Source of the DNA: Rhodothermia bacterium
GTDB taxonomy: Bacteria; Bacteroidota; Rhodothermia; Rhodothermales; UBA2364
Length of the DNA stretch: 32,078 bases
Assembly (NCBI GenBank): GCA_017303715.1
Contig: JAFLBZ010000048.1
Coordinates: forward strand, 1 to 32,078
Direction: 5' to 3'
Both the position numbers and the translations under genes were made by a program. Below, in pieces: positions 7,100-18,235 of the stretch (position 1 is its first letter; each line of letters starts with the position of its first letter). The notes beneath the pieces are model-generated. The model was not told the DNA's origin. It saw only the letters and a list, made by a program, of their open reading frames with translations, and did not search any database.

Positions 7100-7378
7100 T
7101 CATAAAGATATTTTCTTTAACTCAGTTTTGAGGAAGTCTATCGTATGTTCCACAAGTTCGGTGGGAGGGGACGGCGTTTTGGGCATTTCATGTAATAGAC
7201 CGATGGTCGCCTTGTACCGAGAAAGGTAGGCTTTGCAATTTCGGCAAAGACGCAAGTGTTGCTCGAATCGCCATTTTTGGTCTTCGGTTAAGGCATTTTC
7301 AAAATAGTCCGTGAGGAAATGGTGGGCATCTTGGCAACGAAGGTCTATTCCCAACCTATGTTTAAGGGCTTGAATCAT
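7100..7378 (-). CDS. zinc-finger anti-sigma factor
   Basis: A 92-residue protein with the ZAS signature: Cys15, then HLRLCRNC (His-x3-Cys-x2-Cys) in the middle, inside a helical region of the type CxDxHxFLxDYxxxxL...FExHL. Proteins of this class bind zinc, hold a cognate ECF sigma factor inactive and release it on a signal. There is no transmembrane segment, so this would be a soluble anti-sigma factor or one working with another partner. Its start overlaps the 3' end of the sigma gene by 17 bp, a layout that implies translational coupling and equal expression. The C-terminal 30 residues have no recognisable domain. The stimulus cannot be deduced from the sequence. Confidence 0.85.
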   Translation of the reverse strand: MIQALKHRLGIDLRCQDAHHFLTDYFENALTEDQKWRFEQHLRLCRNCKAYLSRYKATIGLLHEMPKTPSPPTELVEHTIDFLKTELKKISL

Positions 7379-7964
7379 AATGGGTTAATCGTTTCTGAAG
7401 GGCGTTTCGGGCACGGTGGAGCCGGACTCGTAGGTTTCCTTCGGTAATTTGGAGGATCGAGGCTACTTCATCCATCGGTAAGTCTTCAAGGTCTCGTAAT
7501 AAAATAGCCACCCGATATGCTTCCGGTAGTTGTTCTATGGCCTCATATAGCAGCCGGATTTGCTCTCTTCGGATTAGGCCCTGTTCTGGATTCCACATTT
7601 GGTACTGCTCTTGGGCATGTCCGTTAACAAGAAACATTGGCTGAAGGGCCTCTATTTCGGATTCCTCCATGACCTCCGTGCGATACGCTTTTCGCAAGTT
7701 GGTGCGTGCCAAGTTGACCCCAATAGCACACAACCAAGTAGAAAACTTAGCCTCACCTCTGAACTGGTCAATCCTGAGCAATGCCTGAAGAAACGTTTCT
7801 TGTACCAAGTTCTGAACTTCGTCTGGATCTCTGATTAAGCGAGCAATACACCGATACAATTTGGGCGTTTCTTCTCGAACCATGCGCGTTATCGCCGCAT
7901 CGTCCCTGTTGCGGAGGGCCTCTAGATGGCTTAGTTGATCGGTATAGGTATTTGTTCCAGGCAA
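7362..7964 (-). CDS. ECF-type RNA polymerase sigma factor
   Basis: A 200-aa sigma-70 family factor of the ECF group. Region 2 lies at about residues 30-95 (PDEVQNLVQETFLQALLRIDQFRG, then FSTWLCAIGVNLARTNLRK) and region 4 at about 140-195 (LPEAYRVAILLRDLEDLPMDEVA, then LRVRLHRARNALQKRL, the helix-turn-helix that reads the -35 element). It overlaps the anti-sigma gene by 17 bp. The 5' end is odd. The longest in-frame start is a TTG at 7964, with no good ribosome binding site, and the first ~28 codons are repeated in degenerate form immediately upstream in a different frame (offset 104 bp). The true start, and whether this gene is still well translated, are therefore uncertain. Confidence 0.9.
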   Translation of the reverse strand: MPGTNTYTDQLSHLEALRNRDDAAITRMVREETPKLYRCIARLIRDPDEVQNLVQETFLQALLRIDQFRGEAKFSTWLCAIGVNLARTNLRKAYRTEVMEESEIEALQPMFLVNGHAQEQYQMWNPEQGLIRREQIRLLYEAIEQLPEAYRVAILLRDLEDLPMDEVASILQITEGNLRVRLHRARNALQKRLTHYDSSP

Positions 7965-8064
7965 GCAAATAGTACGGTTCGAACCATGCGTGTGATCACC
8001 ACATCGTCCCTATTACGGAGAGGGTCTAAATAGTTTAGTTGATCGGTATAGGTATTTGTTACAG
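7875..8064. repeat. degenerate direct duplication of sigma-factor 5' end
   Basis: Two direct copies of about 86 bp lie at 7875-7960 (inside the sigma gene) and 7979-8064 (upstream), with a constant offset of 104 bp. By eye about 13 of 86 positions differ, most of them transitions; the block GATCGGTATAGGTATTTGTT is identical in both (7937-7956 and 8041-8060). Because 104 is not a multiple of three, the two copies lie in different minus-strand frames. Confidence 0.9.
7979..8064 (-). pseudogene. remnant of sigma-factor N-terminus
   Basis: Minus-strand translation gives TNTYTDQLNYLDPLRNRDD followed by VVITRMVR, which matches the first residues of the adjacent sigma factor (TNTYTDQLSHLEALRNRDD, AAITRMVR). 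It sits in an open frame that starts at 8164 and runs out of the sigma frame shortly after the copy. It is either the leftover of the ancestral start region after a tandem duplication, or the stub of a deleted paralogue. It has no complete domain and is unlikely to make a functional protein. Confidence 0.7.
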
Positions 8065-8203: not shown

Positions 8204-8602
8204 TTAGATGATGGTAATCTGGAGGGTGTATTTGACGTTTTTGATCATCGAAACCCCCATCACGCCAAGTCCTTGCACCACTACCTTGTATGTGCCATTT
8301 TCGGGCAGGTCAATGGTTTGCGCACCCGTGCCTTCATCCAGCAATATTGTTCCATCTTCGTCCCCTTGCATTACCAAAAAACCCACCTTGCTGCTCGTCG
8401 TTTTGAGTTTAACCTGCAATCGTTGCCCACCTTTAGCACGAAACATATAGGTATGTATTCCTTCCACATTCAGTAGCGTACCCTTTGCCGTCGCACTATT
8501 GGCTCCCTTTGCGAACCGCACCTGTTTGCTGAACGTGGGTTGCGAAAACGTGGTAACGGCACAGAACAAGGTTAGTACAAAAAAAAGAATGGTCGTTTTC
8601 AT
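8204..8602 (-). CDS. small secreted beta-sandwich protein (PliI/PPC-like)
   Basis: A 132-residue protein with a clear signal peptide (MKTTILFFVLTLFCAVTTFSQ). The mature part follows the pattern VRFAKGANSATAKGTL, YMFRAKGGQRLQVKL, LDEGTGAQTIDLPENGTYKVVV, then YTLQITI at the end. That order (sequestering turn, AKAGQ-like strand, L-P-x-NGxY strand, final YTLxI strand) is what I know from g-type/i-type lysozyme inhibitor (PliI) and bacterial pre-peptidase C-terminal beta-sandwich domains. Function as a lysozyme inhibitor is only a possibility. I chose the ATG at 8602; an extension to 8659 would run into dxs and lacks signal-peptide character. Periplasmic or extracellular location is expected. Confidence 0.65.
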   Translation of the reverse strand: MKTTILFFVLTLFCAVTTFSQPTFSKQVRFAKGANSATAKGTLLNVEGIHTYMFRAKGGQRLQVKLKTTSSKVGFLVMQGDEDGTILLDEGTGAQTIDLPENGTYKVVVQGLGVMGVSMIKNVKYTLQITII

Positions 8603-8651
8603 ATAATACAATGTTTTAGGGATTTTATGGTGTTTCTTTTTCTCGTGTTGT

Positions 8652-10589
8652 TTACGCACTCATTGTTTGGGTTTGTCGTAGAAAATTTAAGGTTTGGGTT
8701 GCGATTCCTTTTGGATCTAAACCGACTTCCGCATAAAGCTCGTCTTGTGTGCCATGTTCTACGAACGTATCGGGTAGTCCAAGCCGGAGAACATCGGCTT
8801 TATACCCATGATCGCACATCCATTCCAAGACAGCACTTCCGGCTCCGCCTTGAACGACGCCATCTTCTATGGTGACAACCGTGTCGTAGGTGGAGAAGAC
8901 CTCTTCGAGGAGGGGCGCATCCAAAGGTTTCACAAACCGTAGGTCGTAATGTGCGGCCTCGACACCGGCTTCTTGAAGGAGGAGACGGACTTTGTGAACA
9001 GACTGTCCGATCGCACCATAGCTTAGAATCGCCAGATCAGTTCCATTCGCTACTTTGCGACCTGTTCCAAGTGGTATTTCCTCGAAGGGCGCCCGCTGGT
9101 CTGCTGGTGTTCCGCCTCTTGGATACCGAATGGCGTATGGGCCTTTTTCGTATATACTGGCCGAGTACATCAGGTTACGGAGGTCTTGGGCCTCCATAGG
9201 TGCGGCGACCACCAAATTTTGAACACAACGGAGGAAAGGAATGTCTAATACGCCGTGATGCGTTGCGCCATCAGCGCCCACCAATCCGGCACGATCCATA
9301 CAGAACACGACCGGAAGGTCTTGCAAGGCTACGTCATGAATAATGCCATCATATGCCCGTTGTAAAAAACTGGAATAGATGGCCACAAACGGTTTTAGCC
9401 CTTGTGTTGCCATTCCTGCAGCTTCTACAACGGCGTGCATCTCGGCAATACCCACATCAAAGGCGCGATTGGGCATTTGCTTCATCATCTTACTCAGACC
9501 TGTTCCACTGGGCATGGCCGCCGTAATACCTACAATTTTAGGGTTTTCTTGGGCCAATTCTAGGATGGCATCCCCAAAAATATCTTGCCAATTCGGGATT
9601 TTACGTTTACCCGGATCTGGTTTGACCAACGATTCTCCGGTAAGTTTATCGAAGGGCGAGCTTTGAGCGTGCCACTTGAGTTGGTCTTGCTCGGCAGGTG
9701 CAAAACCCTTTCCTTTGACGGTCATGCAATGCAGCAAAATAGGGCCTTTTAGGTCTTTTAGGTCGTCCAAAATTTTGGCGAGTTGTACAACATCGTGGCC
9801 ATCCACGGGGCCAAAATACCGGAAGCCGAGTGCCTCGAATAGCCCACCCGGTGTTAAGGCGGCCTTCATGCCATTTTCGATCCGTCCGATGAAACGTTGC
9901 ATGGTTCCACCACCTTTCCCCTTCATTTTTTCAAGAAGATCCCACACCTCGTCACGTAGTGTATTCCAGCCTTTTCCGGCAGTGATCTCAGCCAAGTACT
10001 CGTTCAGTGCGCCCACGTTGGGGTCAATAGACATGCGGTTATCGTTCAAGATCACCAACAAATCGGACTTGGCGGTTCCGGCATTGTTCAGCCCTTCAAA
10101 AGCCAAGCCTCCAGTCAGCGAGCCATCACCGATAATGGCCACCACTTTTTGGTCTGTACCCGAAATGTCGCGTGCCTTCGCCATCCCCAAAGCTGCGGAG
10201 ATGGACGTGGAAGCATGGCCAACCCCAAAGGTATCAAACTCGGACTCGGAGCGCTTTGGAAATCCCGAAATGCCTTGGTATTTGCGGTTGGAGTGGAAAA
10301 CGTCGCGCCTACCAGTTAGGATTTTATGGCCATATGCCTGATGACCCACATCCCAAACAATCTGGTCTTTGGGGGTGTTGTACATGTAATGTAGGGCAAC
10401 CGTCAGTTCAACCACACCAAGCGAAGCGGCAAAGTGCCCACCATGCACAGAGATGATGTCAATGATGTATTGTCTTAGCTCTTCAGCAACTTGTGGCAAT
10501 TTTTCTATGGGCAATTCGCGCAGAATGTGTGGTTGGTCTATCTGTGCGAGCATAGGGCCGGGGATATGAGCGGTTTGGCGTTCTGTCAT
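8652..10589 (-). CDS. dxs: 1-deoxy-D-xylulose-5-phosphate synthase
   Basis: A thiamine-diphosphate enzyme that condenses pyruvate with glyceraldehyde-3-phosphate, the first step of the MEP pathway to isoprenoids. At 645 aa it is full length. Visible are His49 in SVHGGHFAASLG, WDVGHQAYGHK, the ThDP/Mg motif GDGSLTGG (about 154-161) with NDN at 182-184, the catalytic-base region GIAEMHAVVEAAG, YSSFLQRAYD, and DRAGLVGADGATHHG in the pyrimidine-binding domain, followed by the transketolase C-terminal domain. xseB ends 21 bp upstream, so dxs is probably the last gene of an xseB-dxs transcript, an arrangement familiar from other bacteria that keep xseB, ispA and dxs together. ispA is absent here. 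Confidence 0.97.
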   Translation of the reverse strand: MTERQTAHIPGPMLAQIDQPHILRELPIEKLPQVAEELRQYIIDIISVHGGHFAASLGVVELTVALHYMYNTPKDQIVWDVGHQAYGHKILTGRRDVFHSNRKYQGISGFPKRSESEFDTFGVGHASTSISAALGMAKARDISGTDQKVVAIIGDGSLTGGLAFEGLNNAGTAKSDLLVILNDNRMSIDPNVGALNEYLAEITAGKGWNTLRDEVWDLLEKMKGKGGGTMQRFIGRIENGMKAALTPGGLFEALGFRYFGPVDGHDVVQLAKILDDLKDLKGPILLHCMTVKGKGFAPAEQDQLKWHAQSSPFDKLTGESLVKPDPGKRKIPNWQDIFGDAILELAQENPKIVGITAAMPSGTGLSKMMKQMPNRAFDVGIAEMHAVVEAAGMATQGLKPFVAIYSSFLQRAYDGIIHDVALQDLPVVFCMDRAGLVGADGATHHGVLDIPFLRCVQNLVVAAPMEAQDLRNLMYSASIYEKGPYAIRYPRGGTPADQRAPFEEIPLGTGRKVANGTDLAILSYGAIGQSVHKVRLLLQEAGVEAAHYDLRFVKPLDAPLLEEVFSTYDTVVTIEDGVVQGGAGSAVLEWMCDHGYKADVLRLGLPDTFVEHGTQDELYAEVGLDPKGIATQTLNFLRQTQTMSA

Positions 10590-14113: not shown

Positions 14114-14173
14114 AAAAATAATATTTGGACAATTTGATTCATAAGCTGTATTAGCCAATTTAGACACTTGCAT

Positions 14174-17100
14174 ATGTCTTGGGGTATATCAAAACGTATT
14201 TCTGCATGGTGGATCATTGCCCTCTTTTTGGCAACGGTATGGTCTGTTACGGCCATATTGCGGCCTGTTGTACATGCCGTGAAGCAACCAACATTGCAGG
14301 AAGCACTTGCGGTCATTCAGTCTGATTTCTCCGCGCGTATTTTGCAGATGGAAGCCCAGCGCCGGCGAGTGGCTGCCGAGCCTTTTGTTTTGCGTTGTTT
14401 AGAACAGGTAACCGCTGGCGACCATATCGAACATCTTTCTCCGGCCCAAAAGGAGGCTATTGACTGGTTTAGCACATTCCAGGACTTCGACGAACGGCAA
14501 ATGGCGATAGAGTTGTACGATGTAGAGTACAAACTTTTGGCGTGGCGCGGTGTCAGTTTGCCCCTTCAAGACGCCGAGCGTTTGGCGCCCTTCCCCACAA
14601 AGACCACCTATCGGGTTTATACGGCGGCCCAAGATGGTCTCTTGGCATTGGAACAATGGACACCCGTATATCGCCGATCAACAGTGGTGGGTGGTATTCG
14701 GGTGGTGTACCTCATCAATGTCCCCACTTCCGCACAAGGCTCTAATTTACCCGATTTTCGGTTGGAGGACATTTGGCAACAAAAAACCATGCGCCCCGTG
14801 CGTGTGGATTGGCGGACGAAAAGCGCCCATGCTGCAAATCCAAAACAAGGCGTTGGTCTTTTGCGAACACCTGAGGGAACGGTTTTGGGTGAAGTTCAGG
14901 TTTTTGCAGTGGTAGAAACCGAACGACCGAATGAAGCGACTGGCATTCAGGACATTGCGGTTTTCTGGGGCGTTTTGTTTTGGGGATGGTTGGTTTTTGG
15001 CTTTTTCGTTGCTGTGAAGCCTATCGAAAAACGTTTTGGCGGTTGGGCTGGTCATGGGGTTTGGGGTTTGGGACTTTTGGCATTGTGGGGATTTCGGTAT
15101 TGGTTGATCTTTAAAGAAGTCCCCAAACGCTGGTTGCTGGGTGTGCCGATCAGTGGGCAGTTGTATGATCCAAGATATTTGGCCTCAGATCTGGGCATGG
15201 GATTAATGCAGTCTATTGGTGATCTGGCCATTTCTGCTTTTTTTGTGTGGATGTCCGTCTTTTTGTGGACGGATCGGCTACTCCAAATACAAAACCGTCC
15301 GTTTAAAAACAAAGCCACCTCGTCAACTTGGCTTCCTAAACTTACGTTTCTTGTCTGGGGTCTGGCCCTCGCTTTGCTGATAAAGATCGGGTGGTTGGGA
15401 TTTTCGATGGTGGTAGAACGTTCTGTTTCCGATTCTATCTTGGATTATTTGGCGTGGACGGGCTTGATGCCACCCGTCACCATTATGTTGGTTTATTGTA
15501 GTTTGTTGTTACTTGCACTTGCTATACTCTTGGCTGCAACGGTTTTGATGCGATTTTGCCTTCATAAAAGTGGCATTCTATGGCCTAATAGACCCAAGTA
15601 CCTCGATGTTGGTGTATTGATTTTGTGGATGCTGGTTCTAAAGGTTTTTGAATGGTGGGGATTTTTAAGCTCTTTCCAAATAAATGGCTTGGGTGAGTGG
15701 CTTTTGGCCGGAGGTGCGTTAGGGGCGATGTGGTTCTGGAAGCGCGATGCCGAATTGCCCTTGCGGTTGCTCCACCTGCGGAGTTTATTGCTCTTGCTGT
15801 TTGTCGGGGTTGTGTTTACGTATCCCACCATTTATCAAGCACTTCGGCTAAAATTGGAACGTCAAATGGAATTGGTGGCGGACGATTTTGCGCAGGGTGA
15901 GGAAGAACAGATTTTGGGTGCGTTAGAACAAACCATTTTCGATACGCGGCGTAGCAATCCTGTTTTCAAGTCTTTCGATAAGGTTACAGCAGATTCAAGT
16001 CTGGCAGTTGGTATTCTAAATCGGTTAACAGAAGAACTTAATACGTTGAATCAAGGTGATTTTGAAACCTCGATTGGTTTTTTTGATCTTAAGAATTCCC
16101 CGTTGTTTTTAAAAGGGCTGGGTGGTGGACGGGATGCGCAACGGTCGCGGCTGCTACAATCTGGCTTGTCGGATTTTCTGGCGCTCAAAGATGCTTTCCA
16201 CAGCTCGGAAAAAGCAGATCAATTGGTACAGCGTGTATCGCAGCAACAAAATGGCCAATTTCAATACGAAGGCATAGCCCCTTTAACCGAACGAGGTGAA
16301 GCCATTGGTTGGGTAATGATTAGGGCAGAACAACGGATTCGTTATGCCGGAGAAAATTCATTTGTTCGGACTTCGGACGAGGTGATCCAGCGCGAGGGTT
16401 GGCGAAGGAAGTTGGCAGTGGCTGAATACCAAAACGGTATTTTAGTGCGTGGACAGGGAGGCCCCTTCATTAAAACACGCTTACCCGATGAGATCGTCCG
16501 ACAGTTCGATCATAAAGATCGTTATTGGAAAGAGGAAAAGGTATATGATCAGGCATACAATACGTTTTATCATAATCCCTATATGCCGGGGTCGAGGGTT
16601 TTTTCCAATAAAGTCATCGCTGTACGTACACCTGCTACAAATCCCTATGATCACTTGTACTACCTATTGCGGATTATTGTATCGGGGTTGTGGTTGCTCT
16701 TTCCTGTTTTTACAATTGGCTTGGTTTTTCGATTTAGGAAGGGGTTTTTGCCCATGCCCCGCCGACAGTTTCGGGACAAGGTGCTGAACGCCTTCTTGGT
16801 GGTTGGTGTGGTCTCGGTGGTGACGATGGGTATTTTGGGGCAGCAGGTGGTGACCCGCGAAAACCGAGAAACCCTCCGCGAAAACTTGGAACGGCGTTTA
16901 GACCGAACCGCAGAGGCACTTCAGGTACAATATAGCCGAAACGTGCCAGCATGGGAAATCTTAACGGGTATTCTAAGCCGCAACCGCTTAGACTCGTTGG
17001 CCACCAACCTGAGTTTAGACATGAGTGTGTATCGAGGCGCGGAGTTGGTTGCCTCCACACGCTCAGACTTGGTTCGGGAACGCTTGGTGCCCATTCGGTT

Positions 17101-18235
17101 GCCAATCGAAGCCTACGAGCAATTGTACCTCCAAACGCTCCGAAGTGCATACGTGGAAAGTAAAGGGAGAGCGGGCAATTATACGATTGGCTATCGGGCA
17201 CTGTCGGACGAAAATGGGGTGCCGCGTTATACTTTTTCCGTTTTGATGATCTCGGAGCAAGAGCAAGTGCTGGAGGAGCGGGCTAGAACGACGGCGTATC
17301 TCTTTGGTGCGTTGTTACTTTTGATGTTCTTGGTGATGATAACGGTAACGGTTTTGGCAAATGCACTTACACGACCATTAAGTGGTTTGCGCCAGGGTCT
17401 GGAAACTGTTGCAAGTGGACGTTTTGATGCGAAAATTGCGGTGACTTCGCACGATGAAGTGGGTGAATTGGTGGAAACCTTCAATGATATGCAACAACAA
17501 TTATCCGATAGCCGCGAAAAATTGGGCTTGCAAGAGCGGCAATTGGCTTGGAGCGAGATGGCACGTCAGGTGGCGCACGAAATCAAAAACCCGCTAACAC
17601 CCATGAAACTCTCCTTACAACACCTGAAACGTGCGCAAAAAACGATTGATATGAACGATGAAGACGAACGGGCACGCTTCGAGCTTATGTTTCATCGGAT
17701 CACGGCCACCTTAGACGAGCAAATAGACTCCTTAACCAATATTGCAAACTCGTTTTCCACATTTGCCCGGTTGCCCAAGCGGGTCTTGGAAAGATTGGAG
17801 CTAAATCTTGCCGTGGAGGAATGTATCTCACTGATGGAAAGAAGTGATGGTTATGAATTGCTCTTTACACATACCGATAACGAAATTTGGGTGATGGCAG
17901 ACCGCGAGGAGTTGCGGCGTATCTTCTTGAACCTGATTAAGAATGCACTACAAGCCATGCCAGAGGGCGGTACCGTTCGTATGCACGCCGGCCTTTGCAC
18001 CCACTTAAGCGGCAAACCTATGGCCTTTTGCGAGGTTCGCGACACGGGAACAGGTATCCCAGAAGCCTTGCAAGACAAAATTTTTCAACCGAATTTCTCT
18101 ACCAAAACCAGTGGAATGGGGCTGGGATTGGCCATTGTTCGCAAAAGTATCGAAGACCTTGGCGGACAAATTACTTTTACGACCAAGCAAAACGAGGGGA
18201 CTACTTTTCGGGTGGAATTGCCACTCGCCCCATGA
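14174..18235 (+). CDS. very large NtrY-like membrane sensor histidine kinase
   Basis: A 1353-aa sensor kinase, about twice the usual NtrY length. Reading from the N-terminus: one membrane segment (about 11-31), a probable extracytoplasmic region to about 258, a block of about eight hydrophobic segments (260-555), a second soluble region of about 270 residues (556-828), a membrane segment (829-855), another pair (869-893 and 1039-1065) enclosing a third soluble domain, then HAMP (about 1060-1115), the phospho-acceptor His1135 in VAHEIKNPLTPMKLSLQHL, and the ATPase domain with N-box Asn1257 (NLIKNAL), D1290 in DTGTGIP and GMGLGLAIV at 1314. It should autophosphorylate His1135 in response to an envelope or membrane signal. 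No response regulator is adjacent. The start is the ATG at 14174, six bases inside a TTG-initiated reading. Confidence 0.9.
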   Translation: MSWGISKRISAWWIIALFLATVWSVTAILRPVVHAVKQPTLQEALAVIQSDFSARILQMEAQRRRVAAEPFVLRCLEQVTAGDHIEHLSPAQKEAIDWFSTFQDFDERQMAIELYDVEYKLLAWRGVSLPLQDAERLAPFPTKTTYRVYTAAQDGLLALEQWTPVYRRSTVVGGIRVVYLINVPTSAQGSNLPDFRLEDIWQQKTMRPVRVDWRTKSAHAANPKQGVGLLRTPEGTVLGEVQVFAVVETERPNEATGIQDIAVFWGVLFWGWLVFGFFVAVKPIEKRFGGWAGHGVWGLGLLALWGFRYWLIFKEVPKRWLLGVPISGQLYDPRYLASDLGMGLMQSIGDLAISAFFVWMSVFLWTDRLLQIQNRPFKNKATSSTWLPKLTFLVWGLALALLIKIGWLGFSMVVERSVSDSILDYLAWTGLMPPVTIMLVYCSLLLLALAILLAATVLMRFCLHKSGILWPNRPKYLDVGVLILWMLVLKVFEWWGFLSSFQINGLGEWLLAGGALGAMWFWKRDAELPLRLLHLRSLLLLLFVGVVFTYPTIYQALRLKLERQMELVADDFAQGEEEQILGALEQTIFDTRRSNPVFKSFDKVTADSSLAVGILNRLTEELNTLNQGDFETSIGFFDLKNSPLFLKGLGGGRDAQRSRLLQSGLSDFLALKDAFHSSEKADQLVQRVSQQQNGQFQYEGIAPLTERGEAIGWVMIRAEQRIRYAGENSFVRTSDEVIQREGWRRKLAVAEYQNGILVRGQGGPFIKTRLPDEIVRQFDHKDRYWKEEKVYDQAYNTFYHNPYMPGSRVFSNKVIAVRTPATNPYDHLYYLLRIIVSGLWLLFPVFTIGLVFRFRKGFLPMPRRQFRDKVLNAFLVVGVVSVVTMGILGQQVVTRENRETLRENLERRLDRTAEALQVQYSRNVPAWEILTGILSRNRLDSLATNLSLDMSVYRGAELVASTRSDLVRERLVPIRLPIEAYEQLYLQTLRSAYVESKGRAGNYTIGYRALSDENGVPRYTFSVLMISEQEQVLEERARTTAYLFGALLLLMFLVMITVTVLANALTRPLSGLRQGLETVASGRFDAKIAVTSHDEVGELVETFNDMQQQLSDSREKLGLQERQLAWSEMARQVAHEIKNPLTPMKLSLQHLKRAQKTIDMNDEDERARFELMFHRITATLDEQIDSLTNIANSFSTFARLPKRVLERLELNLAVEECISLMERSDGYELLFTHTDNEIWVMADREELRRIFLNLIKNALQAMPEGGTVRMHAGLCTHLSGKPMAFCEVRDTGTGIPEALQDKIFQPNFSTKTSGMGLGLAIVRKSIEDLGGQITFTTKQNEGTTFRVELPLAP

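Follow-up and report, generated by a model that had tools for sequence, protein, structure and literature searches.

The 5' end of a gene encoding an ECF sigma factor is present twice at one locus of a Rhodothermia bacterium, which raises the question of what each copy contributes to the gene. The window analyzed here, a stretch of 32,078 nt, corresponds to contig C48 from a genome of 4.35 Mb, and the GTDB family to which this genome belongs comprises three genomes, Bacteroidetes bacterium UBA2364 among them. The gene (7362–7964, minus strand, TTG start) encodes an RpoE/SigW-like protein of 200 aa with Sigma70 region 2 (Pfam Sigma70_r2, 1.2e-12) and region 4 (r4_2, 7.5e-17) and without region 3; the NCBIfam sigma70-ECF superfamily model scored above its cut-off, the RpoE and SigW equivalogs below theirs. 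The adjoining cognate anti-sigma factor gene (7100–7378, minus strand) overlaps the end of the sigma gene and encodes a zf-HC2 protein of 92 aa, and at least 40 of 54 orthologs are likewise followed by a similar gene. An extra open reading frame (8659–8204) separates dxs from the sigma gene in the window; in the two other genomes of the family, G001 and G002, dxs directly precedes it. Both of these relatives (L002 and L003) carry a strong terminator-like hairpin after dxs and before the sigma gene, in G001 GCCACCGACATTCGGTGGC followed by a T-rich stretch, so that readthrough from dxs is unlikely there. The extra reading frame (8204–8659, minus strand) is predicted to encode a small secreted protein (132 aa from ATG 8602) with weak, sub-threshold similarity to the PPC domain, and weak matches suggest possible distant relatives in tandem sets on contigs C20 of G000, C7 of G001 and C27 of G002. 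Elsewhere in the window, 14168–18235 (plus strand) encodes a 1355-aa sensor histidine kinase with HAMP, HisKA and HATPase_c domains, in which approximately 1060 residues N-terminal of HAMP have no Pfam match at 1e-5.

As originally predicted, an 86-nt block is present twice, at 7875–7960 and 7979–8064, with 73 of 86 positions identical (85%) and a spacing of 104 nt. TRF likewise detected this array, with a period of 104, 84% matches and 1.8 copies. This similarity is far beyond chance, since the best self-match of an 86-mer reached 43/86 in 50 shuffles and the best such matches at similar distances elsewhere in the window were 44 and 47. With small indels allowed, the tandem units extend to 8087–7982 (outer, upstream copy, 106 bp) and 7981–7878 (inner, downstream copy, 104 bp), both on the minus strand and directly abutting. 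Each unit opens with CGAA[T/C]CG, CGA is present at both joints, and the alignment of the 23- and 21-nt unit prefixes was equaled in only 0.7% of shuffles. The 18 bp that appear as a spacer between the 86-nt blocks are therefore partly homologous as well; their placement as a suffix of the repeat unit gave a poor alignment and was rejected. The event is an ordinary head-to-tail tandem duplication and not a pair of blocks around an unrelated spacer.

The single-copy state that had been sought in close relatives was found in both G001 and G002, and the duplication thus arose in the lineage of the window. The identities agree with a lineage-specific event: the copies are 85% alike, and either copy is only 63–68% identical to G001 or G002. 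Within the block G001 and G002 are 89% identical to each other, and the two copies have diverged about as far as these two genomes. They differ at 13 positions, 7 of which would alter amino acids, in line with the original view that the duplication is not brand new. Polarization of the differences with G001 and G002 places a derived T to G change in the -35-like box of the inner copy and, in the old coding frame of the outer copy, an E to D change and probably a helix-breaking proline. Compared with these two genomes, polarized coding changes were no fewer in the inner copy than in the outer.

The sigma frame opens at TTG 7964–7962 and contains no ATG or GTG until the ATG at 7881–7883 (minus strand, residue 28), the sole other canonical in-frame start and a possible start of a short isoform. 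An in-frame TTG is found at the identical position in both single-copy relatives (TTGCGTGTAACA vs TTGCCTGGAACA), where the gene also has 200 codons, and a longer protein is excluded in G002 by a stop codon in the same frame, three codons upstream of the TTG. The TTG lies 19 codons ahead of the aligned reference residue, in agreement with the 15–23 codons seen in many orthologs. We infer that TTG 7964 is the start codon used. Possible damage caused by the duplication had been seen in the TTG start and in the lack of a ribosome-binding site; since both single-copy relatives likewise have a TTG without a clear Shine-Dalgarno sequence, this is the normal state of the gene, and of the original proposal on the start the part that stands is that the duplication may have created a regulated one.

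A feature missed by the original prediction is a conserved, promoter-like bipartite element within the duplicated block. Among 56 matches to the sigma factor from the order (54 of them usable for some counts), GTAAC was found within 260 nt upstream in 48, compared with 10.0 ± 2.7 in dinucleotide shuffles. When 45 orthologs, with the window genus left out, were anchored on GTAAC alone, a second box emerged at a fixed distance, with A at +24 (42/45), C at +25 (40/45) and A at +28 (41/45), followed by A or G; position +6 was A or G. The resulting pattern, GTAAC[A/G]-N17-ACnnA, is found near the start of the sigma gene across the order, and exact GTAAC-N18-ACnnA was present in 39 of 54 orthologs but, among paralogous sigma genes from these genomes, in 3 of 20. 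Relatives thus conserve, ahead of the sigma gene, a -35-like and a -10-like box at a constant distance, the geometry of an ECF promoter. GTAAC[A/G] is already established as a -35 sequence of ECF promoters: it is carried by the SigD promoters of C. glutamicum (-35 GTAAC[A/G], -10 GAT; PMC6338062), and a -35 box of this type is also found in the promoters of ecfF in B. japonicum (PMC3420878) and bcrS in Brucella (PMC8315932), both of which are autoregulated and have mapped 5' ends. The conserved element resembles the promoters through which GTAAC-type ECF sigma factors autoregulate. The start codon of many orthologs lies 30–42 nt after GTAAC, as expected if transcription from a promoter there gave only a very short leader. 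In a sizeable minority the start codon lies at +6 to +15, inside the element, and in some of these (e.g. L100, L105) the only canonical start is between the boxes, at +8 or +15; such orthologs need another promoter or start, because a transcript beginning near +35 would miss it. They may have another promoter, a non-canonical start or another role for the element. A conserved ATG at +15 inside the element, mostly in the context M-x-x-T/S-K/E, was seen in two genera (L087, L090, L095, L099, L100, L108, L109, L104, L105 and L023). In L088 and L107, two orthologs from other genera, the sigma gene is preceded by a pair of GTAAC-type elements (46 and 34 nt apart), and tandem elements may thus have originated repeatedly. 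The element is therefore a putative promoter, probably used by its own sigma factor; the orthologs whose sole start codon is inside it call for caution.

The two copies at the locus have kept different features. A position weight matrix (PWM) of the element, built without the window genus, was scored at 64,096 window positions, and the outer element at 8063–8035 (minus strand; TGTAACAAATACCTATACCGATCAACTAA; TGTAAC 8063–8058, ACTAA 8039–8035) was the best of all with 17.6 bits, the next reaching 12.2. The inner version at 7959–7931 (minus strand; TGGAAC 7959–7954, ACTAA 7935–7931) scored 10.0 bits and ranked seventh in the window. A change of GTAAC to GGAAC in the -35-like box makes the promoter activity of the inner element doubtful; the -10-like box, the reading frame and the TTG of this copy are intact. 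With the same PWM the elements of the single-copy relatives, which overlap the start of the coding frame, scored 10.8 and 10.3 bits; their -10-like box is off consensus, with CC for AC at +24/25. The copies are identical over 26 nt spanning the element and differ at 12 of the 57 positions that follow, an identity that is suggestive but not strong, since P was 0.006 for a predefined stretch and 0.08 for such a run anywhere in the block. By the geometry of ECF promoters (PMC3420878), transcription from the outer element is predicted to start at 8029–8027 (minus strand), 34–36 nt after the G of GTAAC and approximately 64 nt before the TTG.

We consider it reasonably likely that, through the duplication, an autoregulatory promoter came to lie approximately 100 bp ahead of the start codon. 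The duplicated segment, about 105 bp around the start of the gene, would have carried the gene's own promoter, recognized by the sigma factor itself. The outer copy would now provide this promoter (8063–8035), a transcription start near 8028 and a leader of approximately 64 nt, and the inner copy would supply TTG 7964 and the N-terminal codons, with former promoter sequence now coding. The original tasks would thereby be split between the two copies. Against this reading count the orthologs whose only start is between the boxes, the off-consensus -10-like box of the two close relatives, the P of 0.08 for an identical run anywhere in the block, the lack of a visible wider regulon, and the polarized coding changes, which are no fewer in the inner copy.

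Several other explanations were weighed against this division of tasks. The outer copy might be an inert relic that is drifting to loss, with the gene expressed from another promoter, an explanation that we regard as unlikely. The number of differences between the copies, more than half of them amino acid-changing, is compatible with a relic, and no wider set of element sites stands out in the genome: the strict pattern gave 8 matches genome-wide in G000 vs 9 for a reversed control, and with no enrichment no wider regulon is visible. One match, on C20 beside relatives of the 8204–8659 reading frame, falls in the lipobox codons of a lipoprotein (TGTAAC encodes Cys-Asn) and was dismissed as chance. 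Against a relic, it is the outer copy that holds the near-consensus element, the best in the window, and the inner copy that has lost the T of the -35 box. Identical tandem repeats of about 105 bp are usually lost through recombination, so the persistence of both copies at 15% divergence hints that they were retained. More improbable still, the duplicated element might serve as a control site of another kind in DNA or RNA, such as an operator or a leader element, and not as a promoter. The start codons inside the element speak for such a site; two boxes at promoter spacing with a known ECF -35 sequence, the many starts at +30 to +42 and the rarity of the element at paralogs speak for a promoter, and EcfF offers a precedent for an annotated start that overlaps a mapped transcription start.

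The original prediction had seen a lesion or a leader-coupled start, in which an out-of-frame reading frame across the TTG controls or weakens translation of the sigma factor. Its observation that the outer copy leaves the sigma frame is correct: in its own frame the outer copy reads NTYTDQLNYLDPLRNRDDVVITRMVR, and from its ATG a short out-of-frame reading frame of 18 codons (MVRTVLFACLEQIPIPIN, then stop; 7987–7931, minus strand) overlaps the TTG start and ends approximately 30 nt past it. We nevertheless hold this explanation to be very unlikely. The TTG without a clear Shine-Dalgarno sequence is shared with the single-copy relatives, the leader is less structured than its shuffles (z +1.9), and the duplication was found in no other genome. 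A conserved overlapping leader frame was considered and rejected: G001 has an ATG followed by 26 codons that end past the TTG, but the equivalent ATG in G002 meets stops. The frameshift would matter only if the outer copy were translated through, which no reading frame need do, and its reading as damage is likely misplaced, because the order-wide comparison suggests for the outer copy a role as promoter and leader. We give equally little credence to an origin of the outer copy from an older allele, of which only the truncated 5' end would have remained after a diverged gene copy recombined in beside it. The outer copy does retain more of the residues common to relatives (V, N, Y), and its clearly polarized changes are synonymous. 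However, the copies resemble each other more than either resembles the relatives (85% vs 63–68%), and a simple tandem duplication yields just such directly abutting units, with CGA at each joint.

A promoter moved away from the start codon, the reading that we prefer, can be set beside several known ECF systems. Like the SigD promoters of C. glutamicum, the element combines a GTAAC[A/G] -35 box with a -10 box at similar spacing; SigD belongs to a different sigma lineage, its -10 box is GAT, and its promoters show no duplication. The ECF16 factors EcfF (Bradyrhizobium) and BcrS (Brucella) share the TGTAAC -35 sequence and an autoregulated promoter, here a predicted one, and at ecfF the annotated start overlapped the mapped transcription start, a conflict that was resolved by a downstream start (PMC3420878). 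ECF16 promoters read [T/C]GTAAC-N17-CGAA, so that the -35 box agrees and the -10-like box, ACnnA, does not; their anti-sigma factor is a six-helix membrane protein (DUF1109/NrsF), in contrast to the 92-aa zf-HC2 protein at this locus, and no duplication occurs there. Membership in ECF16 is ruled out by the type of anti-sigma factor and the -10 difference.

The closest known design, as far as likeness in sequence layout can tell, is Streptomyces sigR, in which an upstream autoregulatory promoter and a start codon between two promoters are found together with the longer isoform SigR' (PMC5472188). Like sigR-rsrA (sigRp2/sigRp1), the locus pairs an ECF sigma factor with a zinc-type anti-sigma factor in an operon, a predicted autoregulatory promoter lies upstream of a second, putative promoter region, and an unusual start codon lies between them; the order of outer element, TTG 7964, inner element (GGAAC) and ATG 7883 would fit this layout, although the inner element is of doubtful activity. 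Should both elements be active, the outer would drive the sigma factor from TTG 7964 and the inner a shorter form from ATG 7883, a feedback circuit of two promoters and two isoforms that we think rather unlikely; if real, a single tandem duplication would have made a sigR/SigR'-like circuit and turned promoter DNA into coding sequence. If instead the promoter was simply moved upstream, as we favor, a small duplication can part a promoter from the coding sequence that it overlapped, a route that could lead to sigma genes with two promoters, sigR for example. The same reading would predict GTAAC[A/G]-N17-ACnnA as the autoregulatory promoter of one ECF family throughout a bacterial order, and would call for caution with the many annotated starts in that family that overlap the element. 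Unlike the present locus, sigR has promoters that differ from each other without a visible origin in duplication, its second promoter is not autoregulatory, and its extension, which begins at an ATG, is 58 residues long; in the window the second element originated as a duplicate of the first and has since diverged. In summary, the locus is probably a variant of known designs, uncommon but readily understood.
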